DNA of 64,000 nt from Hydractinia symbiolongicarpus (Eukaryota; Cnidaria; Hydrozoa; Anthoathecata; Hydractiniidae): NCBI RefSeq assembly GCF_029227915.1, contig NC_079883.1:15936001-16000000 (forward strand), written 5' to 3'. Of this stretch, positions 13,068-47,704 are shown piece after piece. How positions within the stretch are numbered: position 1 is the stretch's first letter; every line of letters starts with the position of its first letter. Made by a program: the position numbers and the translations under genes. The notes under the pieces are model-generated. The model was not told the DNA's origin, searched no databases, and worked only from the letters and a program-made list of their open reading frames with translations.

Positions 13068-13699
13068 ATCGGGCATAACATAATTCCTTAGATGCGTGCG
13101 CAAGTAAATATCAGGACTGTGATTTTATGTATTCTTGTTGTTTTTTAAATTTACAAAATGTTTTGTCAATAAGTAGTACTTCTATAAGCATTGCCAGTAA
13201 TATTATATTTATAAGTAGCAGTAGAAGGTTCACCCCCTATGCTCTGACCATTTTGAAGAAACCTGCTTTGAACCAAGCTGGAAACTTCAGAATGAATTAT
13301 TTTATAAAGATCGTCCTTGCAAACAGCGGAGGATTCCAAATTCTGTGCCGACAATTTTTTGTCATAAGACTGCCCCTAAGGAACGTACATCATCCACATC
13401 ATGAGCCAAACGAAGTCAATCTAAAGACGTAAGCAAATCTGTTTTTTTTATAAGAATGTTAATCTTGATAATTATTCTTAATTTCTTCGTATTTTGCTAT
13501 TGGTATTGACAAAGCCTTGAATGTTCTTAACATTTCTCGAGTATATCATCTTTGTTCCCATTCCTTTTTATTACTTCGTTCGATCGTTATTAGTTGGTGA
13601 AGTCAGCCTTGGTTGAAGATTCTGAACAATTATGTTTAATCGATAATGAAGTTAAATTTGAAGTTAAATCAGATTATCAGAAATCTTTAGAAACACTCA

Positions 13700-14141: not shown

Positions 14142-15394
14142 CTATTCGTCTTCTATCTCCGCTATCCAAGAAAAATCCATTTCAACCAGTTCTCCCCCTT
14201 CTGCGTCACCCTTAAACCCAGTGTATCGTCCATCTACACTAGGATACTCCTTTCGGATCTTACAAACTGCACAAGCTGGTATGACACGTGTTGTGGATAA
14301 ACCAGCAAAACTGTCGATAAGCACCGTAACAGTAAGTCCTAAAATTTTTACCAAAATAAGTTAAGTCAATCGTCGAATTTTTAGTAACGCGGGAGAGATT
14401 AAATAGATTACCTATTTGGTACATGGTCACGCTCAGGTAAACCGCGACTTTCCCAGTCATATAGCGTGACTAACGCTGTCCATAACACATCTTTCAACAA
14501 CACTATGTAGTTAAAATGTGGATGCTGTGTGATACACTCCTGATCTTAAAATAATTATCATGAAGTCATATTGAAGAAGAACTACTTTGTTTGTTGTTTG
14601 TGGGAGCCGCAGACAAACCCACTACACTACGTGCGGCAATATGTTAGTGATGAACTCGGATAGTTTATCCGGATGGTGTATACATATAGGTGAATATTTA
14701 TCATAGCACATCCGTATTTCATTCTCAACAGAGAATGGTTTACCCCGATCAGACCTCTGATCATGATGGGCGAGTATAATGCGTGTAAGTCATATTGAAG
14801 AAGAACTACTTTGTTACTAACATATTGCCGCACGTAGTGTAGTGGGTTCGTCTGCGGCTCCCAGTTCTGGGGACCGAGGATCGAATCCCGCTCACTGCTT
14901 GGCAGTATGTTAGTGATGAACAAAGTAGTTCTTTCAATATGACTTACACGCATTATACTCGCCCGTCATGATCAGAGGTCTGATCGGAGTGAACCATTCT
15001 CTGTTGAGAATGAAATACGGATGTGCTATGATATAAATATTCACCTATAATTATCATGAAGTTAGAAAAAAGTCTGGAAATATAAACTCGCCTTATTATT
15101 TTTGGAAATATATAAAAATAAACCGCTACCATTAAGATTGAAGTATTTTATGGCATCGATTTCAACACAGCAAACACACTATTTCTCTGTCGGCATCCTC
15201 TCACATTTACCACAACGACACCAATCAGTAAAACAGGCTTACACAATCTATAGGAATTTGCTGAGGATCGAAGTCTGCCTGATCATCAAAAGCATCATTA
15301 AAAACCTGCCTAGGCTGTGAAGCTATTTCGGAATCTGATCTTCTGGTTCATACTGAAATCCTAATACCGTGAAATTTTTGTTCGACGAAGACAT
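14142..15394 (-). pseudogene. P2X7 ballast-domain gene, broken (copy A)
   Basis: There are three exons. Exon 1 (15,394-15,130) starts MSSSNKNF, keeps a WCRCGKCERMPTEK and CVCC cluster, and has a frameshift plus a TAG stop. Exon 2 (14,544-14,412) contains DQECITQHPHF and KDVLWTALV. Exon 3 (14,338-14,142) contains GAYRQFCWF, then after a small deletion and frameshift TRVIPACAVCKIRKEYP and GRYTGFK. These match the zinc-binding cysteine-rich cytoplasmic ballast of the P2X7 receptor, without any channel segment. Intron phases are the same as in copies B and C. Intron 1 has been invaded by a 480-bp insertion (14,567-15,046). The ATG was chosen because the sequence resembles the copy B N-terminus (a QYEP/QFEP motif). 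Confidence 0.85.
14551..15062. mobile_element. 480-bp insertion with 16-bp target duplication and long inverted arms
   Basis: ATAATTATCATGAAGT occurs at 14,551-14,566 and again at 15,047-15,062, bracketing the insertion 14,567-15,046. Inside, arms of about 125 bp (about 14,688-14,818 and 14,923-15,046) are inverted copies of each other. The loop is a tRNA-like SINE head with GATCGAATCCCG as B box. A second inverted piece of the loop lies at 14,595-14,650. A 16-bp target duplication suggests LINE-machinery insertion, perhaps of a template-switched, self-folded SINE transcript. Confidence 0.8.
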
Positions 15395-15764
15395 ATTAAT
15401 AATCGTATTTCATAATTCGTAGAGAAGAGTTTAAAATTAAAAGTTTTTTTAAATAAGTTTCTAAACAGTTAACTTCTTGGGGGTTCATATTTTGTACTGA
15501 AAACGCTACACACTTTCGCTACATAGTCTGTTTTTCACCACTGTTCTACGTCACATGCATAATTACGCATACTAAATTTTTAACCCAGGCCGTTTTGCGC
15601 GCATTTTCAGCAACGAGACGAAGCCATGCTTTAACAACATCTACGATAAAAGAGTTGTTTATATATGTGATTAAGTGAATAATATCAAAAAAGAATTTTC
15701 TATGTCATAATTTTAAATTACAAATAATATTTTAAAATAATTTTTCACCGGACAGTCCCTTTAA
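15395..15764. mobile_element. right end of TTAA element copy A
   Basis: The non-coding region upstream of the copy A ballast gene ends with GGACAGTCCCT followed by TTAA (15,761-15,764). On the other side of that TTAA the Gypsy reading frame begins at once, so this is a real insertion boundary. The end CCCT|TTAA agrees with the right end of copy B. A matching left end starting TTAA-AGGGACTGTCC was searched for by eye from 11.8 to 13.7 kb and not found. Confidence 0.65.
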
Positions 15765-17030: not shown

Positions 17031-18209
17031 AGCGTAAACGTAGGACTCGGCTCTTTGTCGTCTGTATGGCCATAGGGTAATGGATTTGAACGTGATAGGA
17101 AATCCGATGCGTTGTCGTCGCCTGGTTGGTATTGGACGTCAAATGAAAATGGTGTTAGGTACATGATCCATCTTTCGATACAGGGCAGTGGTTTAGCATT
17201 AACGCGGAAGAGGGGCACTAGCGGTTTATGGTTCGTAGAGACAGTGAACTTCATGCCGTAAAGATATATCTTGAAATGTTGGATTTCGAAGTAAATTCCC
17301 AGACACTCCCCTTCGATTTAGCTATATCGTTTCTCCACTGGTGTAATTGAGCGACTCGCGTAACTAACCGGCCTCAATGTTCCATCTGGTTGCCTTTGAG
17401 ATATCAGTGCGCCAAATCCCGTTGGTGATGCATCAGCTATGGCGTGGGTTTCTGCGTGTGGATTGAAATGTGCTAGTGTGTCGGTGGATATGAGTAGACA
17501 CATGAGGGTGTTGAATGCTATTTTATGCTCTGGTTTCCATTTCCATTTGGTATCTTTCTTGGTCAATACTCGAAGGGGTTCTGTAATTGTAGCTAGATTT
17601 GGTATGAAACTAGCACAGTATGTGACCATTCCAAGGAATGAGCGTACTTCCTTTGGATTTGTTGGCTGCTTTAAGGAGTTTATAGTCTCTACTTTGACTA
17701 GGTCGGGGGACAAGCCACTTGCAGATATGACATGCCCCATATACGTGAGTTCGTTCCTGAAGAACTTACATTTCTTTAAGTTGATGGTGAGATTATGTTC
17801 TCTGAGGCGCTTGAATACTTCCTCGAGCCTGTTGAACATTTCGCCTTTATCTTCAGCACCTATGATAATGTCGTCAGACACATTACGCACTCTGTGCATT
17901 CCTTGTAGCACCCGCTCGATCTTGCGCTGGTAGATTTCGGTTGTGGCACTGATTCCATAGATGAGTCGTGTATAGCGTAATATTATGCCATCTCTAGCAG
18001 CAAAAGCAGTGAGATCTCTGCATTCCTCATCTAATGTAACTTGGTGGTATCCTTGGTTGAGGTCTAGATGGCAGAATATCTTGCAGTTGTGGAATTCATG
18101 CAGAAATTCTTCAAGGGCGGGGATCTGGTACGGATTCCTGATGATTGCTGTATTCGCCTTGCACATATCAACACACAGGCGTAAGTCACCAGAAGGCTTT
18201 CGGACAACT
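17024..18209 (-). pseudogene. Gypsy reverse transcriptase and RNase H, broken
   Basis: The RT reads KPSGDLRLCVDM, CHLDLNQGYHQV, then the active site as NVSDDIIIG, with V-S-D-D in place of the usual YxDD. A FLGMVTYCASFIPNLA thumb and RNase H with AIADASPTGFGAL follow. A TAA stop near 17,318 interrupts the RNase H, which resumes as IEGECLGIYFEIQHFK and TVSTNHKPLVPLF. The serine-containing active site occurs in some Gypsy lineages and need not be a mutation. The upstream end of this segment is the TTAA at 18,210-18,213, where copy B is inserted. Confidence 0.92.
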
Positions 18210-18660
18210 TTAAAGGGATCCCAAGGTGCCGACACAAGTTTATTTTATTTGAAAATATGGACCATTTAATTCATAAATTCGTTGTTTATTTTACTTGAAT
18301 TTGTAAGATTACCTAATACTGTTCTTCAAAAGTTTGTCCTTCGCTCGCTTCCTTCGCTTCGGCTGTGTCCGCCATTGCTCCTTCTCCAACTGTTTTCGAA
18401 ATAGATAAGAACTTAGTGACATAGCTCAAAACACCATACGGCTTTGTTGCGTTCTATTATGACGTCACATATACGTAGCTTGAAATTACTGTATCCAGAC
18501 AGTAAACAACTTGTACGGTTCCACTGCGTTTTTAAGCTTAATATAAAAATATGTCTTCATTGAGAGCATGTTATAGCTCATTTAGAAACTTTCGTGCAAC
18601 CACGACACTTATTCTGCAAAATATGCTCACTTTTATAACTTTCCCGCTCATTTCTAAATA

Positions 18661-18836
18661 GTGTGTATGAAAAAAAGCGGTATGATTATTTGAAGGTCAT
18701 GATGATGGGAGCATATAAGCGAGCTGCTAAAGGTGAAAAACATAAATCAAGAAAACCAGTCATGGCACCGAAAGAAAGAGAAAGTAGGGATGACATTATT
18801 GAAAAGAAGAAAAAAATGGCTCGGTTTAAAAAATAG
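18661..18836 (+). pseudogene. transposase C-terminal exon, Kolobok-like (copy B)
   Basis: An open frame after an ATAG acceptor-like site reads VYEKKRYDYLKVMMMGAYKR, a lysine-rich stretch, and DDIIEKKKKMARFKK before TAG at 18,834-18,836. It aligns with the ends of the copy A and C transposases (K-x-Y-x-x-x-x-x-I-L, then IE-x-[SK]-x-K). The rest of the transposase is absent from the 447 bp between the left end and this exon, so copy B is non-autonomous. Its stop lies 128 bp from the ballast stop on the other strand. Confidence 0.7.
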
Positions 18837-18964
18837 ATGTTGTTGTTTTGAAAGGAAAGGACGCCTTAAAAAATGTGGAGGCTTGGGTTCCAGGTTGTAA
18901 AAATTTATATTCATATTTAACCACTGTTCAGTGGCTGCCTTATATTATTGCTAGAGTTCGCTCT

Positions 18965-19877
18965 TCATTCTTCATCATTTGCCATGTATTCCCATGCCTC
19001 GATTACTTCAGATAGCCCATCAGCACCCTCGTCGTCTCCATCAAAATTTACGTAGATCCCATTCGCTTCAGGAAACGTTTCTCTTATCTTTGATACAACA
19101 CAGGCGGGATGATTCTTCGAACGTATCTTCCAAGTTTCGTATAGACGAACCAGGAAAATTGGCGATATGCAGCGTATCGATATGTGCTATAAAAGAAATT
19201 GGGAATGAAGTTGTGAATTTTGTTACCTGTATATAACTTTGAGTATATTATAGTATGTGACTTTGAGTATATTATAGTATGTTGAGTATAATTTTTGTTC
19301 GACATATATCATGAGTACAATTTTACACGTTACATTTTGTTGAGTATACTTTAGCATATGTTTTTAAAATAATAAAAAAGTTGTTTACCGATTTGGAACG
19401 TTATCTTTATTAGGTATCCATGCTCCTTCCCTGTCATGGAGACTGACCATTGCAGTCCATAACACATGCAGGCTCAGACAGATAGCATTGAACCCTTCGT
19501 GTTGAGTAACACATGTCGAATCTGAACAAAATAGAAGAAAGTTTGCCAAAAAAAAAAAAAAAATACATTGTGTGCGCATTATATATTTTCACGTCAAAAA
19601 CAAGAAAATATGCCCACTAAAGTTGAAACTTACCACCAGAAATATATCTCAACTTTATTTCGTCGATTTCAATGCAGCACAAACATTCACGATTCACTGG
19701 CATAGTACAACAAAATAAACATTTACACCATTCGGATGGTTCAACATGTAGTCGATTATTTTGAGGCTCTTGCTCTCCAACCTCTTCAGGTATATCTTCC
19801 CAACTGCCATTGCTATCATCGTCGTGATTATTTATAACTTTCTTTTGTGGTTCGAATTGGTAAGGATTTGCAGACAT
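18965..19877 (-). pseudogene. P2X7 ballast-domain gene with one frameshift (copy B)
   Basis: Exon 1 (19,877-19,634) begins MSANPYQFEPQKK, has an acidic linker and the cluster WCKCLFCC...ECLCC. Exon 2 (19,521-19,389) has CVTQHEGFNAICLSLHVLW. Exon 3 (19,187-18,965) has TYRYAAYRQFSWFVYTKLG and RRIIP, then after a one-base frameshift near 19,105 the expected CVVSKIRETFP and an acidic C-terminus ending at TGA 18,965. Splice sites are GT-AG, with GTAAGT and GTAAAC donors. Apart from that one base the gene is complete, so a sequencing error is possible. The cysteines match the Zn-binding ballast of P2X7; there are no membrane segments. A soluble metal-binding protein is the simplest reading; its role in the transposon is unknown. 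Confidence 0.88.
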
Positions 19878-20164
19878 ATTATTAAACTTTTGTGTAAGTA
19901 TATTTGTATTTCGCGCGGGATTTTGTTACTTAACCGGCGCGTCACAAAAGTGTTGTGAGTAAAAAAGACTGGACGCTACTCTTCAACCTTCTGAAAATAA
20001 ATTCACAACAAGATGGTGGCGGAGGTTCACATTTTCATGAAGTAAACATGGGCATATCTTATATACCATATCGATTTGGTAAGAACGACTATCTTTTTGT
20101 AATTTCTTCATATGTTCTGAGGTAAATTAGCTCAACTTGTGTCAGCACCTCGGGATCCCTTTAA

Positions 20165-21525: not shown

Positions 21526-24500
21526 GAACTTGAAGAAAATAGCTTTTCTGTATAATAGCTTTTCTGTATAGTTTCTTTTATTATGTTAGACAATACGTTG
21601 TATTTTGATTGGTTTATTTTACGGCGCATGCGTTAATGTAAAAACGTTGTAAACTCTGAAACAGCGTGGTTAGACCCGCGAAGAATTTAATAAAAACAGA
21701 CAGAGTTATTTCTCTTTTTTTCTGGTTTTTAAATGGCGCCCGATGAGGGACACAAAGATTGATTTATATAATTAAAGAAAATTGGATGCTATTGCTGTTG
21801 AGCAAAGACATTGATCAAGATTGGATCAACGAAATTTGAACGAAAGACACGTATGAAACGAAAATAGTTCAGTAAGCTCATTCGCTACTTGACTTGACTG
21901 ACCTTTTTTTTTTTGAACTGCTTAATAATTTAATTGACATTTAAGAACGTTTTTAGACAGCCATCTTTGACGTTACGAAATCGATATTTTTGCTTGATTG
22001 CAAAGATATTTACGGATTTGATTGAAGTTTCTTTTTTTTGTTTCTTGTGTGCCAGCACGTGGTTTAGACATAAGTATAGTTTTTGGTTTTACAGCTTATG
22101 GTTTGGGGCTATAGAAGAGTACGAATTCATGTTTTTTCTTGGTTTGTTTTGATACGTGGAGTTGTTGTTTAGACTTATTTATTTTGAAGGTTGTTTTATT
22201 TTAGTTTCTAAACGCGTGTTTCTTTACATGCCATTTTTCTGTTTTGTGCATAAGAAAAAGTTTACTCCTGTTGGGTACAGACTGCTGTTTACCCTCTTTG
22301 TGGATAAGAATTAGATCGAGATAGATTTTGGCTCCTGTTAGGCACAGGATACTTTGTAAGTGTTTGGGTATACTTCTATTTTAAAGCTTCTGAAGATGTC
22401 TGATCTACAAAAGAAAATTAATCAAAGAAAGGCTATCCGCATCCAAACTTCCTCGGTTACTAAAAGAATAGAAAAGCAGCTTAGTGATGAAAATGCTACT
22501 CATGTAAAGTTACTAGGTTTACAGAATAACCTTGTTAACAAGATTGAGCAGCTAAACATGTTGAATGATGAAGTTTTAGCTCTGTTGAAACCAGAGGAAG
22601 TTGAACAGGACGTTCTAGAAAGTATGGAATATACTGATCCCACACATGAACTTCTTGCAGCGGTCACGTTAAAGTTACAATCTTTATCGTTGTCCCCTCC
22701 ATCTGAGGTTGACCATCACGGCCCAGATTCTGTAAGAAGTGTGTCCTCTCGTTGTCGTTTACCAAAATTTGAACTGCCAATTTTTAAAGGAGACCCCCTA
22801 TGCTGGCAAGGATTTTGGGATCAGTTTAGCGCGTCGATTCATGACAACGAAGAGATTTCTGATATTGATCGATTTAATTATCTGAAGAGATATGTCGAAG
22901 GTCAAGCTTCTGAGACAATATCTGGATTAAGTTTAAGTTCAACAAACTATAAAGAGGCCATTAAAATTTTAACCGAACGTTATGGCAATCCACAGGTGCT
23001 GATATCAGCACACATGGATTGTCTAATTCGTCTGAACAAGGTAACTAATAAATCTGACATTGTGTCTTTACGGAAACTTTATAACGGAATTGAAAACTGT
23101 ACTAGGAATTTGAGTGCATTAAAGTTGGACATTTCTGCATATGGAAGTTTGTTGATTCCTCTATTAAAAGAAAAGTTACCGGATGATCTAAATATGATAA
23201 TTGCTAGGAAATTTGGAAGCGATATTTGGACGCTTGAACGCCTTATGATCTTTTTTAACGATGAACTGACTGCTTACGAAAATTGTAAACCTGTCGTAAA
23301 GCCAAGTGCAGAGGGAAAAATGAAAAGAAATGATGAGTTTTTTACATCAAGTTGCTTGCATAGGCAAAACTTCTTGTTAAATAAGTCCAAAAGTTGTTTA
23401 TACTGTAATGGAAATGATCATTTGGCAAGTCGATGTAGGTCTGTGACAGAGGTTGTTACAAGAAAGGAATTGTTACGTAAGCAAGGTCGTTGCTTTGTAT
23501 GCCTAGCAACTGGACACTTAGGAAAAAACTGTCCTAGCAACTATTCTTGTCGAAAATGCAAACACAGACATCACATTTCCATTTGTTCTTCTGATGGTTC
23601 GCAAGCAGGTGCTCATCACAACAATTTTGTATCATCATACAGTGGTGTTTTAATGCAAACTGCTTCTGCTGATGTATCTGATACATCAGGCAATGCAAAA
23701 AAGCACACGCGGATTCTATTCGATAGTGGCAGTCAGAGAAGCTACCTATCTCAGGACTTATGTAAGACTTTAAAATTAAAACCGTTAAGAAAGGAAAAGG
23801 TTATTGTTAAGACTTTCGGAAGTGACGATTCCAGGGTTCAGGATCTCCAAGTTTACCAGGTTAAGATTAAACATAAGAACTGTCATGGATTTTGTTTTGT
23901 TGAAGCATACTGTGTTCCAAATGTTTGTAGTCCGTTGACCCACCAATACCTTGAGTTTGTAAAAGCAAGTTACCCTCATGTGGAAGGTTTAGAGTTGGCT
24001 GATAGAAACGTGAATTGTCGGGATTTGAATGTAAACTTATTGATTGGGCTAGATTTCTATTATAGTTTTTTTACTGGGAAAATGAAAAAGGGTTCGGGGG
24101 GACCTGTAGCATTGGAAACTACGTTGGGTTGGGTCTTAAGTGGAAAATACGAGTCCGAGGAGCAGAAACAGCACTGTTTGCAAACACAGCATGTTATGAA
24201 AGTGGAAGTTGAGAAGAAAAATGAGTTACTAAGAAATGAGTTAAAGAAATTTTGGCAGGTTGAATCTGTAGGGGGTCAAGAAATTTCTGTAATTAATGAT
24301 TTTGAAAATCATATTTATCATGATGGATCACGCTATGTGACAAGGTTACCTTTCAAGCCTGATCACGATCCATTACCTGATAATTATTTTGTAAGCGAAA
24401 GAAGACTTAGATCCACGGCCAAGAAACTGCATGCTCTAGGAATTTATGATGACTATGATAACATTTTTAAGCAATACGTCCAGGAAGGTATAATTGAAAA

Positions 24501-27500
24501 AGTAGGTCGCAATGAATTAATCAGAGAAAGTGGTAATGTCCATTATCTCCCACACAGGGCAGTTGTGAGGGAAGATAAGCAAACCACTAAGATTAGGGTT
24601 GTATTTGATGCATCCAGTAAGGCAAACGGTCCTTCTCTTAACGATTGTTTATACTCAGGTCCAAACTTATTATGTAAGATCTTTGATGTACTTTTTAGGT
24701 TTCGGTTGAACAAGATTGCAATTATTGCCGATATCAGGCAAGCCTTTTTAAATATTAGTATTGATCAACCTCACCGTGATTTTTTGCGATTCTTATGGTT
24801 TGAGGAGAACAAAGTGGTAATTTATCGTTTCCTCAGAGTTGTTTTTGGTTTAACAAGCAGCCCTTTTCTTTTAAATGGAACAATTCGTCAGCATTTAAAT
24901 AAATTCTTAGATATGTATTTCGAGATTGTGAAAAAATTGGGTGAAGATTTGTATGTAGATGACACGACAACCGGTTGTAATTCTGTTGAAGAAGGGAAAA
25001 AATTTCAAGAAGTTGCCGTGGATGTGATGAGTAAGGCTGGATTTGAATTAAGGAAATGGTTTACTAATAATAATGAACTACAAGTTTTTTTTGATAGGCG
25101 AAAGGGGTGTGATAAGACTATTGGAGATGACATGACTTTTGCTAAAAGCCAAGTTAATGGAATAAATAAAGACTATAGTCATAAGGTTTTAGGATTAACA
25201 TGGGATAAACACACTGATTGTTTTCTGTTTGATTTTAACGAATTTATCAGAAAATCTAAGGCATGTTCTTTCACAAAGAGGAATGTTTTAAGTTTATCTG
25301 CTTCTATGTACGATCCACTTGGAATTATTTCTCCTATTACAGCTCAAATTAAAACTTTTTTTCAGTCCTTGTGCGTGGATAAATCGGATTGGGATGAAGT
25401 TATTTCAGGTGGTATTGAGGCTAGATGGATCGCTCTGTTAGAAAAAATTGAGTTTTTGAGCGTAGTCCGCGTACCAAGGTTTTCCTTCGTTGATTGGACC
25501 GAAGTTGTATCTGCAGAGTTGCATGGGTTTTGTGATAGTTCTCTTAGTTTATACTGTGCTCTTGTCTATGTGAGGATTGTTACCAAGGTTGGGATCAAAG
25601 TATTTTTTTGGACGTCGAAGACCAGGGTTTCACCACTGAAAACTCTTTCTATCCCTAGGCTTGAACTATTAGGATGTTTATTGCTTTCTACTTTGATTGA
25701 GGATGTCACGAGGGCTATTGCTGGAAGGATAAAAATAGATCGCATTGTTGGCTGGACAGACTCACAAGTAGCTCTTTGTTGGATCAGGGGTAAAGAGAGA
25801 ACTTGGAAGTCCTGGATTGAGAATAGGGTGGTGAAAATAAGGAAAATTGTTTCACCTGACATGTGGTTTCACGTAGCTGGCGTAGAGAATCCTGCTGATC
25901 CACCAACAAGATCTATCGATGATTTTGTGAGTCTTTTTAATGGTATTTGGTTTAACGGTCCTTCTTTTCTTTTAAACGACAACATTCATTATGACGTAAC
26001 AACTGACTTTTCAAAAACTGAAGTGGAAAAGGAGCTAAAAGCTTCGACTGACATACAAAACGTACTGACTGTTACTGAACAGAATGCGGTTGACTTGAAC
26101 GAAATCGTTGATTTCTCTCGATATGGATCATTAAACAAATTAATTCACGTCGTAGCCTACGTTATTCGCTTTAAGAACAATTTGATAGCAAAGATACGTA
26201 AAAATGAAGAATCAAACAACGATGAAAACCTGAATGTCGATGAAGTAACCAAATCTTTGGACCATATTGTACGTGCCGAACAGCAAGCTATGACCAAAAA
26301 TTCGAATTTTAATAAAACAAAGTCGAATTTAAATGTTTACCAGGATACTGAAGGATTTTTTAGACTGAAAAGTCGTTTTGGTGAATCAAAGTTAACAGAC
26401 GATCAAAAGCACCCGCTTTTACTTCGAGAAGGAAGTCATGTGACAATGTTAATCGTTCGAAATGCCCACGAAGAGGTATTGCATTTTGGAGTGGAATCAA
26501 CGTTGGCGAAGATTAGAGAAAGATTTTGGATTTTGCGTGGCAGGAAGACAGTGAGAAATGTTTTACGACGATGCGTAATATGTCGGCGATTTCAAGGACG
26601 AACGATGACCTCACCAGAAAGTCCGGATCTTCCTGTTTTCCGAGTGGATCATCTGACGCAAGCTTTTGCTACGACAGGGCTTGATTACGCCGGTCCTCTA
26701 TTTGTAAGGATTCACGGACATTCCTGCTCAAAGGTATACATTTTACTTTTTACTTGTGCTAGTAGTCGCGCAATCCACCTTGAACTCACGCCTGACATGA
26801 AATCACCTGCGTTCATCCGAGGCTTTAAGCGATTCGTTTCAAGAAGAGGAAAACCAAATGAAATTGTAAGTGACAATTTCAAAACATTTAAGTCGTCCGA
26901 GGTTAAAGCTTATATGTTAAAAATGAGAATTGGTCAACGCTTCATTCTACCAGCCTCCCCATAGTGGGGTGGATTTTATGAACGTCTTGTTCGTTCCGTA
27001 AAAACATCTCTTAAGAAAATACTAAGAAAGTCGTTTCTAACGTTTGAAGAGTTACAAACTGTTTTATGTGAAGTCGAGAGTGTAATCAATTCAAGACCAC
27101 TCTGTTATGCGAGTGATGAAGACGTTGGAGCTATGATCACCCCTAATCATCTTATCTTTGGGAGATCATTGAACCATGCTACAACTAATAATCAACCGAT
27201 TACTGTATTAGATGTGACCGAATGCACTCGAAGAGTCCTTCGTTTAAGAACAGTCTTAGAACATTTTTGGAAACGCTTTAGTATAACTTATTTGAACGAA
27301 CTGAGGCAACGACACCTTTACGAAAGGAAGAAGACAGCAGACGCAGAGTTGAGGCTGAATGATATTGTACTCATCAAGGACGACACACCCACACCACGCT
27401 CGCAATGGAAAATCGGAAAGATAGAAAAATTAATTGTTGGAAAGGACGGTCGAACTCGAGGTGCAAAATTAAAAGTGAATTCGACATCAGGCCGGTCAAC

Positions 27501-27960
27501 TTATGTGCATCGACCTGTTCAAAAGTTAATACCGTTCGAAGTGATAGAAGAAGAGGTGAAGGCAACTGAGGCGGAAGATAATCAACTTTATCCTATGGTC
27601 ATCGACGAACAGAGTTCAGGTAGTTCAGGTGGTGCGTGCGATGAACACCGCGTAGAAAGTAGAGTACGCCGGCGGGCTGCGATAGAGGGGCAGAACTTTC
27701 GTCGTTTTAAGGACAAGTATAGTAATTGATTTCTGTCAATTACGGGGGGAGGATGAAGAAAATAGCTTTTCTGTATAATAGCTTTTCTGTATAGTTTCTT
27801 TTATTATGTTAGACAATACGTTGTATTTTGATTGGTTTATTTTACGGCGCATGCGTTAATGTAAAAACGTTGTAAACTCTGAAACAGCGTGGTTAGACCC
27901 GCGAAGAATTTAATAAAAACAGACAGAGTTATTTCTCTTTTTTCTGGTTTTTAAAGAACT
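21526..27960 (+). mobile_element. BEL/Pao LTR retrotransposon, complete structure
   Basis: The 5' LTR (21,531-21,733) and 3' LTR (27,754-27,955) both start TGAAGAAAATAGC and differ by about one base, so the insertion is recent. GAACT lies directly outside both LTRs as a 5-bp target duplication. The LTR is followed by TGGCGCCCGATGAGGGA, a plausible primer-binding site. The 3' LTR is preceded by the purine tract GGGGGGAGGA. One gag-pol frame fills the interior, broken by a single TAG. Confidence 0.95.
22360..27729 (+). CDS. BEL/Pao gag-pol polyprotein with one in-frame TAG
   Basis: The frame is 1,789 codons. The likely start is 22,360 or the internal ATG at 22,396 (MSDLQKK). In order, it has a coiled-coil N-terminus and a Gag-like domain (around residues 130-290, PIFKGDPLCWQGFWDQF). 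Zinc knuckles follow from residue 346 (CLYCNGNDHLASRC, CFVCLATGHLGKNC), then a protease with FDSGSQRSYL near 455. The RT has YVDD at about 865, the RNase H has GFCDSSLSLYCAL, and an integrase has LDYAGPLFVR, SDNFKTF and GGFYERLV. A TAG at 26,962-26,964 replaces an expected tryptophan codon just before GGFYERL, near the catalytic glutamate; after it the frame continues to 27,729. The order protease-RT-RNase H-integrase is that of BEL/Pao. The product should be virus-like-particle polyprotein; the stop probably disables integration. Confidence 0.93.
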
Positions 27961-28280
27961 TTTGCTGAGGAAGGTGAATCACTAAATGTATGGGTCTATT
28001 TTTTATGACAAAATATGGCTATTAGTGCCTCGTACCCACAAAAAATACTATTTCCTGTTTTTTTAAGCGTTTACGGTATTGACAGCCAGATAATTGGATA
28101 ATGTACTGATGGTACACGCAGTAAAATTTCCTACCTTTCATAGTCAGACACTGTTTGCTGGCTGTGTTGCCATTTTACTATTTTTTCACAAGATAATTTA
28201 TGTGATTAGTTAGTGACGTTTGCCGAACTTCGTACACTATATATATTTTAAGTTGTGTACGAGGCTGGTATCGATTATAA

Positions 28281-28631
28281 AGATAGATAGAAAGATGTGC
28301 ATATTTTACATGGCTAGCCTCACAAATATCGAGGGATATACCCTGTCTATTATTTCCAGGAGGGGCCATGGCGTAGATGGAGAGTCCTAGAGTATTTAAT
28401 GCTCATTTTGAGCTACGCAGACCCAATTAGGGCCCGCGCTCTACTAGACAACTCCCGGCAACATCCAACGGCCCACACAGTGTGCCATCTTCCCAATTTC
28501 CCTCACATGGCTTGGGTTAACAAGGGGCTATGGTAACATTCACTCGCCCATGTTGAATCGCCGTCAAGAGGAATCGAACCCCGGTCTCCCGCACAGAGTA
28601 CGAGAGCTATAACCACTAATCTACGGCGCCA
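28281..28631 (-). repeat. SINE family 1, copy in duplicated flank
   Basis: This is a full-length copy of the SINE seen in the Helitron, in reverse orientation: tRNA-like head at 28,560-28,631 and tail with GATA/TATC units near 28,281. The same copy is repeated at 34,620-34,970 by the segmental duplication, so these are one insertion. Confidence 0.9.
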
Positions 28632-28639
28632 CAATAAAA

Positions 28640-28732
28640 AAATCAAGACTGCACGTGATTACTTACAACCATTAGATGGTGGTCAATTAACATCTAGAGA
28701 ATATTTAAGATATTCTCATGAATGTATTTATT
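28640..28732 (+). other. short open frame next to SINE, unrecognised
   Basis: Directly after the SINE head an open frame reads KTARDYLQPLDGGQ, TSREYLRYSHECIY and stops at TAA. It looks protein-coding in composition and could be the end of an element ORF cut by the SINE. I cannot name a family. It recurs at 34,979-35,071 by duplication. Confidence 0.3.
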
Positions 28733-29006
28733 AATGTTTAGATATTCACTTCTAAACAATTATTCGTTGCATAATTTTTTGCATAGCAATAATCGTAATA
28801 AAATTTTCCATCTTCGTACAAGTGTGACGTACGTAGTGTGGTTTCTATACGGAGTAATACTATATTTAGAAATTATAAAATTACATAGTCGGCTTGATAC
28901 CTTGAAAATTCAAACATACGTTATTTTATATAATTTTGTTTTGGTCTATTTCTATAGCGAGAGACCGCCGCTCAAAATATATGATATATATATAATACTA
29001 TTTCGG

Positions 29007-29088
29007 CTATCGGAATTCCCTTATTTCCGATAGTGTGTTGGTCAAAGACATGTCGACATCAGATATGTTAACATCCCGCCGCAATGAT
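29007..29088 (-). pseudogene. duplicated last codons of the RLE LINE
   Basis: This 82-bp segment is identical to 35,346-35,427 and encodes the C-terminal DVNISDVDMSLTNTLSEI region of the LINE protein. It marks the right breakpoint of the tandem duplication and shows that the duplicated block reached into the LINE gene. Confidence 0.9.
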
Positions 29089-29354
29089 GCTTATGGTTTG
29101 GGGCTATAGAAGAGTACGAATTCATGTTTTTTCTTGGTTTGTTTTGATACGTGGAGTTGTTGTTTAGACTTATTTATTTTGAAGGTTGTTTTATTTTAGT
29201 TTCTAAACGCGTGTTTCTTTACATGCCATTTTTCTGTTTTGTGCATAAGAAAAAGTTTACTCCTGTTGGGTACAGACTGCTGTTTACCCTCTTTGTGGAT
29301 AAGAATTAGATCGAGATAGATTTTGGCTCCTGTTAGGCACAGGATACTTTGTAA

Positions 29355-32300
29355 GTGTTTGGGTATACTTCTATTTTAAAGCTTCTGAAGATGTCTGATC
29401 TACAAAAGAAAATTAATCAAAGAAAGGCTATCCGCATCCAAACTTCCTCGGTTACTAAAAGAATAGAAAAGCAGCTTAGTGATGAAAATGCTACTCATGT
29501 AAAGTTACTAGGTTTACAGAATAACCTTGTTAACAAGATTGAGCAGCTAAACATGTTGAATGATGAAGTTTTAGCTCTGTTGAAACCAGAGGAAGTTGAA
29601 CAGGACGTTCTAGAAAGTATGGAATATACTGATCCCACACATGAACTTCTTGCAGCGGTCACGTTAAAGTTACAATCTTTATCGTTGTCCCCTCCATCTG
29701 AGGTTGACCATCACGGCCCAGATTCTGTAAGAAGTGTGTCCTCTCGTTGTCGTTTACCAAAATTTGAACTGCCAATTTTTAAAGGAGACCCCCTATGCTG
29801 GCAAGGATTTTGGGATCAGTTTAGCGCGTCGATTCATGACAACGAAGAGATTTCTGATATTGATCGATTTAATTATCTGAAGAGATATGTCGAAGGTCAA
29901 GCTTCTGAGACAATATCTGGATTAAGTTTAAGTTCAACAAACTATAAAGAGGCCATTAAAATTTTAACCGAACGTTATGGCAATCCACAGGTGCTGATAT
30001 CAGCACACATGGATTGTCTAATTCGTCTGAACAAGGTAACTAATAAATCTGACATTGTGTCTTTACGGAAACTTTATAACGGAATTGAAAACTGTACTAG
30101 GAATTTGAGTGCATTAAAGTTGGACATTTCTGCATATGGAAGTTTGTTGATTCCTCTATTAAAAGAAAAGTATAGGCAAAACTTCTTGTTAAATAAGTCC
30201 AAAAGTTGTTTATACTGTAATGGAAATGATCATTTGGCAAGTCGATGTAGGTCTGTGACAGAGGTTGTTACAAGAAAGGAATTGTTACGTAAGCAAGGTC
30301 GTTGCTTTGTATGCCTAGCAACTGGACACTTAGGAAAAAACTGTCCTAGCAACTATTCTTGTCGAAAATGCAAACACAGACATCACATTTCCATTTGTTC
30401 TTCTGATGGTTCGCAAGCAGGTGCTCATCACAACAATTTTGTATCATCATACAGTGGTGTTTTAATGCAAACTGCTTCTGCTGATGTATCTGATACATCA
30501 GGCAATGCAAAAAAGCACACGCGGATTCTATTCGATAGTGGCAGTCAGAGAAGCTACCTATCTCAGGACTTATGTAAGACTTTAAAATTAAAACCGTTAA
30601 GAAAGGAAAAGGTTATTGTTAAGACTTTCGGAAGTGACGATTCCAGGGTTCAGGATCTCCAAGTTTACCAGGTTAAGATTAAACATAAGAACTGTCATGG
30701 ATTTTGTTTTGTTGAAGCATACTGTGTTCCAAATGTTTGTAGTCCGTTGACCCACCAATACCTTGAGTTTGTAAAAGCAAGTTACCCTCATGTGGAAGGT
30801 TTAGAGTTGGCTGATAGAAACGTGAATTGTCGGGATTTGAATGTAAACTTATTGATTGGGCTAGATTTCTATTATAGTTTTTTTACTGGGAAAATGAAAA
30901 AGGGTTCGGGGGGACCTGTAGCATTGGAAACTACGTTGGGTTGGGTCTTAAGTGGAAAATACGAGTCCGAGGAGCAGAAACAGCACTGTTTGCAAACACA
31001 GCATGTTATGAAAGTGGAAGTTGAGAAGAAAAATGAGTTACTAAGAAATGAGTTAAAGAAATTTTGGCAGGTTGAATCTGTAGGGGGTCAAGAAATTTCT
31101 GTAATTAATGATTTTGAAAATCATATTTATCATGATGGATCACGCTATGTGACAAGGTTACCTTTCAAGCCTGATCACGATCCATTACCTGATAATTATT
31201 TTGTAAGCGAAAGAAGACTTAGATCCACGGCCAAGAAACTGCATGCTCTAGGAATTTATGATGACTATGATAACATTTTTAAGCAATACGTCCAGGAAGG
31301 TATAATTGAAAAAGTAGGTCGCAATGAATTAATCAGAGAAAGTGGTAATGTCCATTATCTCCCACACAGGGCAGTTGTGAGGGAAGATAAGCAAACCACT
31401 AAGATTAGGGTTGTATTTGATGCATCCAGTAAGGCAAACGGTCCTTCTCTTAACGATTGTTTATACTCAGGTCCAAACTTATTATGTAAGATCTTTGATG
31501 TACTTTTTAGGTTTCGGTTGAACAAGATTGCAATTATTGCCGATATCAGGCAAGCCTTTTTAAATATTAGTATTGATCAACCTCACCGTGATTTTTTGCG
31601 ATTCTTATGGTTTGAGGAGAACAAAGTGGTAATTTATCGTTTCCTCAGAGTTGTTTTTGGTTTAACAAGCAGCCCTTTTCTTTTAAATGGAACAATTCGT
31701 CAGCATTTAAATAAATTCTTAGATATGTATTTCGAGATTGTGAAAAAATTGGGTGAAGATTTGTATGTAGATGACACGACAACCGGTTGTAATTCTGTTG
31801 AAGAAGGGAAAAAATTTCAAGAAGTTGCCGTGGATGTGATGAGTAAGGCTGGATTTGAATTAAGGAAATGGTTTACTAATAATAATGAACTACAAGTTTT
31901 TTTTGATAGGCGAAAGGGGTGTGATAAGACTATTGGAGATGACATGACTTTTGCTAAAAGCCAAGTTAATGGAATAAATAAAGACTATAGTCATAAGGTT
32001 TTAGGATTAACATGGGATAAACACACTGATTGTTTTCTGTTTGATTTTAACGAATTTATCAGAAAATCTAAGGCATGTTCTTTCACAAAGAGGAATGTTT
32101 TAAGTTTATCTGCTTCTATGTACGATCCACTTGGAATTATTTCTCCTATTACAGCTCAAATTAAAACTTTTTTTCAGTCCTTGTGCGTGGATAAATCGGA
32201 TTGGGATGAAGTTATTTCAGGTGGTATCCATCTAGCCTCCACCAACAAGATCTATCGATGATTTTGTGAGTCTTTTTAATGGTATTTGGTTTAACGGTCC

Positions 32301-34068
32301 TTCTTTTCTTTTAAACGACAACATTCATTATGACGTAACAACTGACTTTTCAAAAACTGAAGTGGAAAAGGAGCTAAAAGCTTCGACTGACATACAAAAC
32401 GTACTGACTGTTACTGAACAGAATGCGGTTGACTTGAACGAAATCGTTGATTTCTCTCGATATGGATCATTAAACAAATTAATTCACGTCGTAGCCTACG
32501 TTATTCGCTTTAAGAACAATTTGATAGCAAAGATACGTAAAAATGAAGAATCAAACAACGATGAAAACCTGAATGTCGATGAAGTAACCAAATCTTTGGA
32601 CCATATTGTACGTGCCGAACAGCAAGCTATGACCAAAAATTCGAATTTTAATAAAACAAAGTCGAATTTAAATGTTTACCAGGATACTGAAGGATTTTTT
32701 AGACTGAAAAGTCGTTTTGGTGAATCAAAGTTAACAGACGATCAAAAGCACCCGCTTTTACTTCGAGAAGGAAGTCATGTGACAATGTTAATCGTTCGAA
32801 ATGCCCACGAAGAGGTATTGCATTTTGGAGTGGAATCAACGTTGGCGAAGATTAGAGAAAGATTTTGGATTTTGCGTGGCAGGAAGACAGTGAGAAATGT
32901 TTTACGACGATGCGTAATATGTCGGCGATTTCAAGGACGAACGATGACCTCACCAGAAAGTCCGGATCTTCCTGTTTTCCGAGTGGATCATCTGACGCAA
33001 GCTTTTGCTACGACAGGGCTTGATTACGCCGGTCCTCTATTTGTAAGGATTCACGGACATTCCTGCTCAAAGGTATACATTTTACTTTTTACTTGTGCTA
33101 GTAGTCGCGCAATCCACCTTGAACTCACGCCTGACATGAAATCACCTGCGTTCATCCGAGGCTTTAAGCGATTCGTTTCAAGAAGAGGAAAACCAAATGA
33201 AATTGTAAGTGACAATTTCAAAACATTTAAGTCGTCCGAGGTTAAAGCTTATATGTTAAAAATGAGAATTGGTCAACGCTTCATTCTACCAGCCTCCCCA
33301 TAGTGGGGTGGATTTTATGAACGTCTTGTTCGTTCCGTAAAAACATCTCTTAAGAAAATACTAAGAAAGTCGTTTCTAACGTTTGAAGAGTTACAAACTG
33401 TTTTATGTGAAGTCGAGAGTGTAATCAATTCAAGACCACTCTGTTATGCGAGTGATGAAGACGTTGGAGCTATGATCACCCCTAATCATCTTATCTTTGG
33501 GAGATCATTGAACCATGCTACAACTAATAATCAACCGATTACTGTATTAGATGTGACCGAATGCACTCGAAGAGTCCTTCGTTTAAGAACAGTCTTAGAA
33601 CATTTTTGGAAACGCTTTAGTATAACTTATTTGAACGAACTGAGGCAACGACACCTTTACGAAAGGAAGAAGACAGCAGACGCAGAGTTGAGGCTGAATG
33701 ATATTGTACTCATCAAGGACGACACACCCACACCACGCTCGCAATGGAAAATCGGAAAGATAGAAAAATTAATTGTTGGAAAGGACGGTCGAACTCGAGG
33801 TGCAAAATTAAAAGTGAATTCGACATCAGGCCGGTCAACTTATGTGCATCGACCTGTTCAAAAGTTAATACCGTTCGAAGTGATAGAAGAAGAGGTGAAG
33901 GCAACTGAGGCGGAAGATAATCAACTTTATCCTATGGTCATCGACGAACAGAGTTCAGGTAGTTCAGGTGGTGCGTGCGATGAACACCGCGTAGAAAGTA
34001 GAGTACGCCGGCGGGCTGCGATAGAGGGGCAGAACTTTCGTCGTTTTAAGGACAAGTATAGTAATTGA
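29355..34068 (+). pseudogene. second BEL gag-pol copy with two deletions
   Basis: This copy lacks the 5' LTR. It has an in-frame 183-bp deletion after 30,171 (loss of about 61 Gag residues before the zinc knuckles). A further 485-bp deletion is replaced by a 12-bp filler at 32,228-32,239, which removes much of the RNase H region and shifts frame (stop at 32,261). The frame reopens at 32,266-33,303 and, after the same TAG as copy 1, at 33,304-34,068. The 3' LTR follows at 34,093-34,294. It is dead as an autonomous element. The TAG shared with copy 1 predates the duplication. Confidence 0.93.
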
Positions 34069-34619
34069 TTTCTGTCAATTACGGGGGGAGGATGAAGAAA
34101 ATAGCTTTTCTGTATAATAGCTTTTCTGTATAGTTTCTTTTATTATGTTAGACAATACGTTGTATTTTGATTGGTTTATTTTACGGCGCATGCGTTAATG
34201 TAAAAACGTTGTAAACTCTGAAACAGCGTGGTTAGACCCGCGAAGAATTTAATAAAAACAGACAGAGTTATTTCTCTTTTTTCTGGTTTTTAAAGAACTT
34301 TTGCTGAGGAAGGTGAATCACTAAATGTATGGGTCTATTTTTTATGACAAAATATGGCTATTAGTGCCTCGTACCCACAAAAAATACTATTTCCTGTTTT
34401 TTTAAGCGTTTACGGTATTGACAGCCAGATAATTGGATAATGTACTGATGGTACACGCAGTAAAATTTCCTACCTTTCATAGTCAGACACTGTTTGCTGG
34501 CTGTGTTGCCATTTTACTATTTTTTCACAAGATAATTTATGTGATTAGTTAGTGACGTTTGCCGAACTTCGTACACTATATATATTTTAAGTTGTGTACG
34601 AGGCTGGTATCGATTATAA

Positions 34620-34970
34620 AGATAGATAGAAAGATGTGCATATTTTACATGGCTAGCCTCACAAATATCGAGGGATATACCCTGTCTATTATTTCCAGGA
34701 GGGGCCATGGCGTAGATGGAGAGTCCTAGAGTATTTAATGCTCATTTTGAGCTACGCAGACCCAATTAGGGCCCGCGCTCTACTAGACAACTCCCGGCAA
34801 CATCCAACGGCCCACACAGTGTGCCATCTTCCCAATTTCCCTCACATGGCTTGGGTTAACAAGGGGCTATGGTAACATTCACTCGCCCATGTTGAATCGC
34901 CGTCAAGAGGAATCGAACCCCGGTCTCCCGCACAGAGTACGAGAGCTATAACCACTAATCTACGGCGCCA
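34620..34970 (-). repeat. SINE family 1, duplicated copy
   Basis: Same insertion as 28,281-28,631, shifted by 6,339 bp through the tandem duplication. The sequences look identical by eye. Confidence 0.9.
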
Positions 34971-35345
34971 CAATAAAAAAATCAAGACTGCACGTGATTA
35001 CTTACAACCATTAGATGGTGGTCAATTAACATCTAGAGAATATTTAAGATATTCTCATGAATGTATTTATTAATGTTTAGATATTCACTTCTAAACAATT
35101 ATTCGTTGCATAATTTTTTGCATAGCAATAATCGTAATAAAATTTTCCATCTTCGTACAAGTGTGACGTACGTAGTGTGGTTTCTATACGGAGTAATACT
35201 ATATTTAGAAATTATAAAATTACATAGTCGGCTTGATACCTTGAAAATTCAAACATACGTTATTTTATATAATTTTGTTTTGGTCTATTTCTATAGCGAG
35301 AGACCGCCGCTCAAAATATATGATATATATATAATACTATTTCGG

Positions 35346-35372
35346 CTATCGGAATTCCCTTATTTCCGATAG
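35346..35372 (-). other. stem-loop at the LINE stop codon
   Basis: CTATCGGAA at 35,346-35,354 pairs with TTCCGATAG at 35,364-35,372, a 9-bp perfect stem with a 9-nt loop spanning the last codons and stop. It could act as an RNA structure for the reverse transcriptase or be coincidental. Confidence 0.5.
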
Positions 35373-45314: not shown

Positions 45315-46095
45315 ATGGCTACCTTTAAAGCTTACCTCCCGAGAAAAATCAAGTTGACCTAAATTGGCTTATATTTACGAATATAAAGTTTTTCAGGCAA
45401 AATACTAAACCAAGTACTGACTCGGATTCCAGCTGGGAGAGCTGTGATGAGGATACTGATCAAGAAGAAGTCGCTTCACGTGTTGATGTTGCTGTGAGCA
45501 TGTGGTGCAAGTGTGGAAAATGTAAGGAAATGCAGAGCGAAGCGGAGTGTCTTTGCTGTTTCGAGTTAGAATCCACGAATATTTTTAATTTGATCGGTGA
45601 GTTTTGATATGCGATTTATAGGCACATGTCAGTATTGCGATTCCGCTCTTGTGAAAATCATACTCTTTTTTAGATAACTGCATTACAGAACATGAAAACT
45701 TCCACAGCATCATACTTTTGAAGGAGGTTTTATGGACCGCATTGGTAGGAATGCATGACACAAATACGAGTCATCTACCACAACGAGTAAACGTAACCAA
45801 CAAGTAAATATTTTCAATCTTTTAACATAATTACAGAATTAAATATATAAAGTAAATATAAGCACTATTTTATATTTTCAGGACTTATAGGTACGCAAGT
45901 TATAGACAGTTTACTTGGTGGGTGCATAATAAGATAGGGAAAGGAGTTCGTCGAGTGATACCTAGTTGTGTTGTCAATAAAATAAGAGACGTGTTTCCTG
46001 AGCCGAACGGAGTTTATGTTGGATATAAAGATGGTGAACCCGTACCCGAAATTGACATTGCATGGGCATTGAGGGAAGAAGAAGAATTGGATTAA
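45315..46095 (+). CDS. P2X7 ballast-domain protein, intact (copy C)
   Basis: Exons are 45,397-45,596, 45,674-45,803 and 45,882-46,095, with GTGAGT and GTAAAT donors and TTTTTTAG and TTTTCAG acceptors. A 5' exon at 45,315-45,352 ([12 protein letters not shown]) joins in phase through a 44-bp intron but has a weak donor (AA|GTTGAC). The protein has an acidic linker ([11 protein letters not shown]), the cluster [11 protein letters not shown]...ECLCC, then NCITEHENF and [13 protein letters not shown], then [36 protein letters not shown] and GVYVGY, and an acidic tail. These are the cysteines and the Y-R-x-Y/A motif of the P2X7 ballast. No transmembrane segment is present, so it is a free-standing ballast. 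Its stop is 22 bp from the stop of the transposase on minus. Confidence 0.88.
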
Positions 46096-46117: not shown

Positions 46118-47704
46118 TTATTTAAGTCGGGAATACTTTGTAGATAGTTCGATGGTTGTTTCTCTATTTGGCTTTTCTGCAGGTGCTACAAATAGCTGAC
46201 GTTTTCTTGAGTCTGCTTCAATCTTGGAGCGCCTTTCGGAATCTACTGCGCGGAAGTGAATAGCTTTGAGGATACATCGCATAAAGTAATACGATTTATC
46301 TTCCTAACTTTTAAGGCTGTAAATCTCTTAGTGGCTTTCGAATAACGAATACGGAACCTTCGAACTTTACCATCAGCGTTCTTTTTTCGGTATGTGGCCT
46401 GCAGAAAACAGCGGGATGCATAAAATTCACGTACACAGAGATGATTTTATTTAACATTTTGTAATATTTACCTGTTTCCGATCAGCGTTGTAATTATGGT
46501 CCATTATAGCCAGTGCAGTTGATGCCAACATCTTATCTTTTTCATAAAATACGCTTTTAGGCAAGTATCGAATTTTTAATGAATGGAATACCTCCAGACC
46601 AGCTGTAGAGATATTCTTATTCATTTTTTGCATGTCTTTAACAAGTTGTGGTACCTTTAACACTTTGATGAGAGCATCGTGCGCTGGACTACTTGGTTTG
46701 ATCCAATTCTTCTGTTTCTGTTCCTCACTTGTATATGGAGGATGGTCACACTTTTTGTAATGTAATCCAGGGAAGGTATGCTTGTTTGTGACATGATGTA
46801 TCACAGATAGAAATCTCTCGACAAGCTCAACCCCGTTCCATTACAAGTCGACACACTCCAATACAAGTGATTAACGATAGAAGGTGCCCATTCTCTAAGC
46901 TGTTCGTATCTTAATAAAAGTTTTAAAAACCTCTTTATATCCTGGCCCAGTAAATGATAAGACACTATATATATGAAGTAGCTAATGACCAACCTTTTTT
47001 TTGCCCAACTTTATTAGTTTTTTAAAAATGTTCTTTGCAATATGCCATGGGTCAAATTGGTGACGTATATTCTTGTACCTTTTGTCTGTGGCCATTAACT
47101 TTCTGATTTACGTATGTTGGTCTGTAGAGATTGCAGCGATGGGCAGAGCATGATTGTCTTTAAGGTTATTTACCGTACGTATGAAGCCCTCCTTCTCCAT
47201 TACCATAACAATTAGTTGGTGGATATAGCATACTAGTATTGTTTTACTTGTCCTATACAAAAAAAGTTCCCTACCATTGGAATTCTTTACCTCCTTCACG
47301 TCAACGATTTTATAATCCAATGTTCGGCTAGATGAAACGTCCATCGCTGAATCCGTGCTATACGTGGCATTGTGACCAGGGCTATCACATTGTCCGTCTA
47401 TTGATAGTTGGATATTCTCAGATTTATGTTTAACTTTTTCAATCATTTCTAACTGATGAGCACTCCAAGCGCGTTCAATTTCTGGGAATACATACTGACC
47501 TGTAAATAGTTACACCATACATATGGTACAAAAATCACAAAAAGTATAAGTTCGCTGTCGCTATACAGATATCTTACCTCGCAACCTGTAGTAGGTTGTT
47601 TTTTCAATGAATGGCATGTTTAGCAAATAGGCGAATCGCTTAAGTTTCGTGAAAGATTTGGCCGCCATTTCTGCTGCAGCAGTTACTAATAGATTTTTCA
47701 ACTC
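46118..47704 (-). pseudogene. Kolobok-like transposase, C-terminal two thirds (copy C)
   Basis: Four exons were inferred. 47,704-47,578 (KSFTKLKRFAYLLNMPFIEK). 47,499-about 46,995 (QLSIDGQCDSPGHNATYS, YKIVDVKEV, AISTDQHT, then after a TAA stop, IRHQFDPWHIAKNI). 46,941-46,472 (IVNHLYWSVSTCNG, HHVTNKHTFPGLHY, WIKPSSPAHDAL, GLEVFHSLKIRYLPKSVF and ALAIMDHNYNADRKQ). 46,398-46,118 (FRIRYSKATKRF, YYFMRCILKAIHFR, a KRQL...IELSTKY tail). The ordered motifs D-G-x-C-D-S-P-G-H, S-T-D-x-H, F-D-x-W-H and E-V-F-H-S are those of an RNase H-like transposase I believe to be Kolobok. Lesions: the TAA at 47,108-47,110 and frameshifts near 46,835 and 46,300. The expected N-terminal THAP-type domain was not found upstream. 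Confidence 0.72.

Follow-up and report, generated by a model that had tools for sequence, protein, structure and literature searches.

A probable non-autonomous Kolobok element carrying a ballast-domain gene in Hydractinia symbiolongicarpus

Kolobok transposons and the ballast of P2X7

P2X7 is an immune receptor, and piggyBac is, beside Kolobok, the other well-known TTAA superfamily of transposons. The two subjects of receptor and transposon are joined by KolX, a protein of Kol0-lineage Kolobok elements that is described as having the cytoplasmic ballast fold in the parts of Kojima & Bao (2022, PMC9587614) available to us. According to the same parts, Kolobok elements are characterised by a duplicated TTAA and by RR..YY ends, the latter setting them apart from piggyBac, and P2X7 is held to have originated when a P2X4-like gene was fused with KolX (sections 12 and 16). 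Ballast proteins have been found across animals, and the ballast of P2X7 is encoded by a single exon, exon 13, as given in the available portion of PMC7016195, the main text of which does not contain the string 'transpos'. In PMC10620158 the word ballast is confined to the reference list. Among the texts consulted it is PMC9587614 that ties the ballast and P2X7 to transposons.

The window, by which is meant the whole 64-kb stretch of H. symbiolongicarpus DNA that was analysed, contains a short element whose family is like Kol0, as presented in the available parts of PMC9587614, in its TTAA, its RR..YY ends, a DDE transposase that has C/DxxH and, ahead of the last E, a zinc motif, and the possession of KolX. 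Unlike Kol0 the element is shortened, with most of the transposase deleted, and its KolX has two introns; its family is not named in those parts of the paper. The Kolobok elements of Xenopus, as far as they are covered by the accessible text of PMC6004289, have in common with the present family the THAP and H2CH motifs, TTAA and, in one listed copy, AGGGGA ends, and differ in their host, the term 'P2X' having no occurrence in that text. With the cytoplasmic ballast of P2X7 itself (PDB 9e3m, 6u9v, 8tr5) KolX displays sequence homology over the cysteine clusters, the difference being that KolX has no P2X channel part.

The kinship between KolX and the tail of P2X7 is real, and the available parts of PMC9587614 make clear that both the identity of the ballast with KolX and the origin of P2X7 by fusion were published in 2022. 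As that paper already states these links, the headline of an earlier sequence-only reading of this DNA, that P2X7 may have gained its tail from a transposon gene, is an independent rediscovery. What is new here is (i) the non-autonomous family represented in the window, (ii) a recently mobile ballast-bearing family, and (iii) the varied introns of KolX.

The short element and its longer sisters

The element spans window positions 18214-20160 (1,947 bp), is flanked on both sides by TTAA, and has 27-bp inverted ends, identical at 25 of 27 positions, which read AGGGATCCC[A/G]AGGTGC[C/T]GACACAAGTT (Table 1). Its TTAA-anchored end-match score is 25; when the flanks of unrelated loci were cross-paired as a control, scores of at least 14 arose in 2 of 592 cases and of at least 12 in 22 of 592, values that apply to the narrower end scan, for which the control was done. 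The sequence-only reading had located a TTAA-flanked element of this length, with inverted ends, inside a Gypsy polymerase gene, and its coordinates were right. Excision of the element in silico, with one TTAA kept, leaves the Gypsy frame open across the join. The Gypsy frames on either side match the Pfam models RVT_1, RNase H and rve (integrase), and the upstream frame also matches two aspartyl-protease models, both below their curated cut-offs. A TTAA target-site duplication is found in the window element, in the relatives that were read and in sampled elements described below. The termini read AG..CT, in keeping with the 5'-RR, YY-3' rule, in the window element and the five relatives that were read, and AG..CT is also found in 13 sampled ballast-locus elements with printed ends (L022 not among them).

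Table 1. Positions of the short element, its host frame and the other ballast-related features in the window.
Feature	Positions	Strand	Basis
TTAA target-site duplication, left	18210..18213		sequence
Terminal inverted repeat, left, 27 bp, starts AGGG	18214..18240	+	sequence, end-match scan
Terminal inverted repeat, right, 27 bp	20134..20160	-	sequence, end-match scan
TTAA target-site duplication, right	20161..20164		sequence
Gypsy reverse transcriptase/RNase H, interrupted by the element	17321..18208	-	Pfam match, rejoined frame
KolX exon 1 (predicted), start codon at 19877	19634..19877	-	splice signals, frame, P2RX7_C match
KolX exon 2 (predicted)	19389..19521	-	splice signals, frame
KolX exon 3 (predicted), 1-bp loss breaking the frame	18965..19186	-	splice signals, frame, copy comparison
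Transposase leftover, last codons ending RESRDDIIEKKKKMARFKK-stop, from the deletion junction (element positions 454-468)	18663..18836	+	translated alignment
Second KolX copy, exons to 45596, 45674-45803, 45882-46095	45329..46095	+	splice signals, frame, P2RX7_C
Decayed Kolobok-type transposase, tail-to-tail with second KolX copy, internal stops	46121..47701	-	alignment to L033
Third KolX copy, stops and nested foldback insertion, limits approximate	14143..15394	-	translated similarity
THAP-domain remnant, on that side of the third copy where one would be expected	13237..13431	+	L033 THAP exon residues 53-118, 1.5e-7

Within the element lies a predicted three-exon gene on the minus strand, drawn from splice signals and frame, with GT/AG borders and intron phases 1 and 2. 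Upstream of a break in the frame the protein matches Pfam P2RX7_C at 3.7e-6 (27.4 bits, cut-off 23.5). This had been put forward as a ballast gene with all hallmarks; the three exons, the quoted motifs and the P2RX7_C match hold, but a 1-bp loss right after RRIIP shifts the I-R-x-x-FP motif into another frame. Because the loss breaks exon 3, KolX in this element is not an intact gene, and that candidate was rejected. A PDB search limited to the first 154 residues brought up no P2X7 chain at E up to 1, a phage collection searched with a piece of the protein gave nothing, and a Pfam scan of two of the window ballast proteins at E up to 1 listed P2RX7_C alone and no P2X channel domain. Judged by its sequence, the gene is most plausibly KolX, the accessory gene of a Kol0-lineage Kolobok, and so native to the transposon and not foreign to it. 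The copy in the window element is a decaying leftover.

When the genome was searched with the element, 35 matching pieces turned up in 26 candidate places. Coverage of the whole element at 92-100% identity was found for four short copies, on contigs C9 (the window), C2, C5 and C8, which were all read (the window's, L030, L031 and L032); a copy at C9:14.08 Mb has an inner part missing, a copy on C11 covers the element at 67%, and the remaining matches are pieces of longer elements. All four short copies have TTAA at both ends and their flanks are all different, their pairwise identity being 93-97% with the flanks counted in. They also have in common a single internal junction, which joins about 419 to 2970 of the longer sister L029 at a short repeat. 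As these copies lie at TTAA sites that are unrelated, the shared junction indicates that the short form itself moved. Neither the DDE catalytic part nor the THAP domain is seen in the window element, in which the C-terminal tail of the transposase alone is left.

L029 (4,373 bp) has TTAA at its borders and the ends of the window element, and identity over the aligned parts is 96-98%. Between its ends it has, besides a THAP domain (2.4e-15), a DDE transposase whose frame is broken and a ballast gene interrupted by one stop. It is without 164 bases that are present in the short form. L029 is not the direct parent of the short form, and the parent is not among the copies seen. A sister family is represented by L033 (4,565 bp), in which a THAP exon (3.3e-19) is accompanied by a transposase frame of 732 aa that matches Pfam Mutator (1.4e-8) and by a KolX predicted as three unbroken exons (P2RX7_C 2.2e-13). 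In both longer sisters the transposase and KolX are arranged tail-to-tail. When the L033 transposase is aligned with that of the ballast locus L013 (632 aa, no Pfam family matched), GDGRCDSPG, TDxH, FDxWH, the H..H..CEH motif and the following E line up, placing the DDD/E residues, C/DxxH and the zinc motif before the last E in both proteins. The retained last codons of the transposase, and the ends shared with the long sisters, mark the short form as derived by internal deletion.

The TTAA duplication would equally fit piggyBac, an identity to which we give almost no credence. The ends are 5'-AG..CT-3' and start AGGG, RR..YY being what marks Kolobok from piggyBac in the available parts of PMC9587614, and the L033 transposase has FDxWH together with a THAP exon and matches Mutator, with no piggyBac model listed at E up to 0.01. 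On its RR..YY termini and the lack of a piggyBac-type transposase in L033, piggyBac was rejected. Our main reading, with a probability of about 0.95, is that window positions 18210-20164 derive from a Kol0-lineage Kolobok DNA transposon with two genes and are themselves non-autonomous, and the short elements are built as would be expected of non-autonomous elements that their relatives serve. In such a process a deletion between short repeats would have removed the THAP and catalytic parts, and the transposase of a longer relative would then have recognised the intact ends and cut-and-pasted the short form. KolX may assist transposition in trans, which would render the copy within the short form dispensable and allow it to decay.

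Two further ballast copies that had been reported in the window proved real, at about 45.3-46.1 kb (+) and 14.1-15.4 kb (-). In the second copy the open frame of exon 1 is without a start codon, and the protein matches a P2X7 chain in the PDB at 7.4e-9. Neither the two longest pieces of its adjoining transposase nor the L013 transposase matched a Pfam family, so both proteins were assigned via the alignment to L033. The scan for ends detected no TTAA inverted ends around the second copy (43.5-45.4 against 47.7-52.5 kb) and no left end for the third; these ends may have decayed. The likely right end of the third copy, CCCTTTAA at 15757 (window 15757-15764), abuts the end of the Gypsy frame that was hit by the window element; a single Gypsy copy may thus have received Kolobok insertions from two different families. 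By eye, in translation, the second and third copies keep transposase tails that resemble that of the window element. The foldback insertion within the third copy lies at window 14577-15054 and has arms of 106 nt that are 95% complementary. A separate observation concerns window positions 22094-35430, where two near-identical retroelement copies in the same orientation, with long polymerase-like frames, are 99.97-100% identical over pieces of 1.1-3.2 kb.

Ballast genes across the genome

Is the ballast gene a host gene that was picked up as cargo by a TTAA transposon, or does it belong to the transposon? The first answer, given by the sequence-only reading, agrees with the window element as it is now, with a ballast gene and no catalytic transposase, but longer sisters with such ends have the same ballast gene beside a transposase. 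A genome-wide search for P2RX7_C (480.9 Mb, 76 contigs) gave 465 candidate places, of which 150 were scored, and all 150 exceed the family cut-off. From the best 37 ranks of these, 20 loci (L009-L028) were read, a non-random sample that includes several of the same family. Where capture might lead one to expect mostly single-copy host genes outside TTAA elements, all 20 (of 150 scored, 465 candidates) are transposon-borne, as judged by a neighbouring transposase and/or TTAA inverted ends. In 16 of the 20 a match to a Kolobok transposase (tblastn, E up to 1e-4) is tail-to-tail with the ballast match at a distance under 0.5 kb, an arrangement that extends to ballast families 27-43% identical to one another; the other four (L016, L017, L026 and L027) are TTAA elements with no transposase match at E up to 1e-4. 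TTAA with inverted ends scoring at least 15 was found at 13 of the 20 loci, 11 by the narrower scan together with L009 and L010, whose 5.9-kb elements were reached by the wider scan only; L028 has an end-match score of 12.

The relation to P2X receptors points the same way. There are five P2X_receptor matches in the genome, all at C13:8.33-8.34 Mb, and the nearest C13 ballast match, among the 150 scored of 465 candidates, is at 9.01 Mb. On these positions no joined P2X-ballast gene was seen, and none of the 150 scored matches is near the P2X locus. Host-gene capture is very unlikely, and was rejected on the position of KolX beside the transposase in the longer sisters and in other families. 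The ballast is indeed carried by mobile DNA, as had been proposed, although it is the native KolX of a Kol0 Kolobok and not captured cargo.

All six KolX proteins in the alignment retain the WCxCxxC and CC clusters; five retain the C of C[IV]T (it is N in L009), and the last cluster, P[SA]C, is present in all five that extend that far. Judged by sequence, KolX would have the ballast fold. Unbroken frames in L009 and L013 match a P2X7 chain in the PDB at 1.9e-12 and 9.5e-10, respectively. Four elements of 4,113 bp (L018, L019, L020 and L021) occupy four different sites and differ from one another by 2-4 mismatches; they contain a transposase frame of 633 aa, a ballast gene predicted in two exons and a frame that is THAP-like by eye, to which the L033 THAP exon gave no match. 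This ballast-bearing family is recently mobile.

Elements that bear KolX with no detected DDE transposase derive from three parent families, namely the window family, L016/L017 and L026/L027. L016 and L017 have one deletion in common relative to L009, whereas L026 and L027 differ in their inner parts, L026 having a THAP-like frame by eye. Some ballast matches are arranged in other ways. Three equal matches on the same strand at C6:11542348, 11547338 and 11552328 are spaced 4,990 bp apart, tandem-like, and two triplets on C7, at about 22.09-22.10 and 32.68-32.69 Mb, mirror each other in order and strand, as though one were an inverted duplicate of the other some 10.6 Mb away. L013 and L014, two 3.4-kb ballast-bearing elements, have identical outer 12-base flanks, so one may duplicate the surroundings of the other.

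Constraint on KolX and the possible origin of the P2X7 tail

When L033 is compared with L029 and the four short copies, KolX dN/dS is 0.056-0.070 (five comparisons), values that are rough since dS between these long lineages (1.55-1.73) approaches saturation. The six comparisons of the short copies with each other give 0.44-0.86, on few changes, and those of the short copies with L029 give 0.37-0.75. KolX in the short copies diverges about like non-coding DNA and is conserved between the longer lineages, which is most simply explained if long elements need KolX whereas short ones, in cis, do not.

A different reading would have the KolX of short elements functional, either now or when they spread, with its retention selected and the short elements acting as KolX-exporting helpers or hyperparasites. 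The KolX-only elements from three parent families are what recommends this, a pattern that the sampling itself favours because the elements were found by a KolX search. It appears improbable given that the KolX frame is broken in all four short copies, that exon divergence exceeds non-exon divergence in four of their six pairs (and is below it in two), and that L016 and L017 each carry a stop in the ballast match. About equally doubtful is a broader proposal, in which loss of the transposase with KolX kept is recurrent and initially selected, and KolX may bias a shared transposase and then decay after the burst; if true, the P2X7 tail would be a transposition co-factor.

What do the introns of KolX say about P2X7? 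As predicted from frame and splice signals, there are two in the window family, in the second window copy and in L033, one in L019, and in L009 and L013 the stretch that matches the ballast is intronless. Because the ballast of P2X7 is one exon, an intronless KolX lineage would fit best as a candidate donor, and the derivation of the P2X7 tail from such a transposon gene is compatible with the present data.

Copies read at the DNA level in one genome thus confirm that the P2X7 ballast domain belongs to a transposon gene which is present in multiple copies and recently mobile. Between the long lineages KolX is under constraint, which is relaxed in elements that have lost the transposase, and the near-identical 4,113-bp elements offer a test of its putative role in transposition, and hence of what P2X7 would have inherited.
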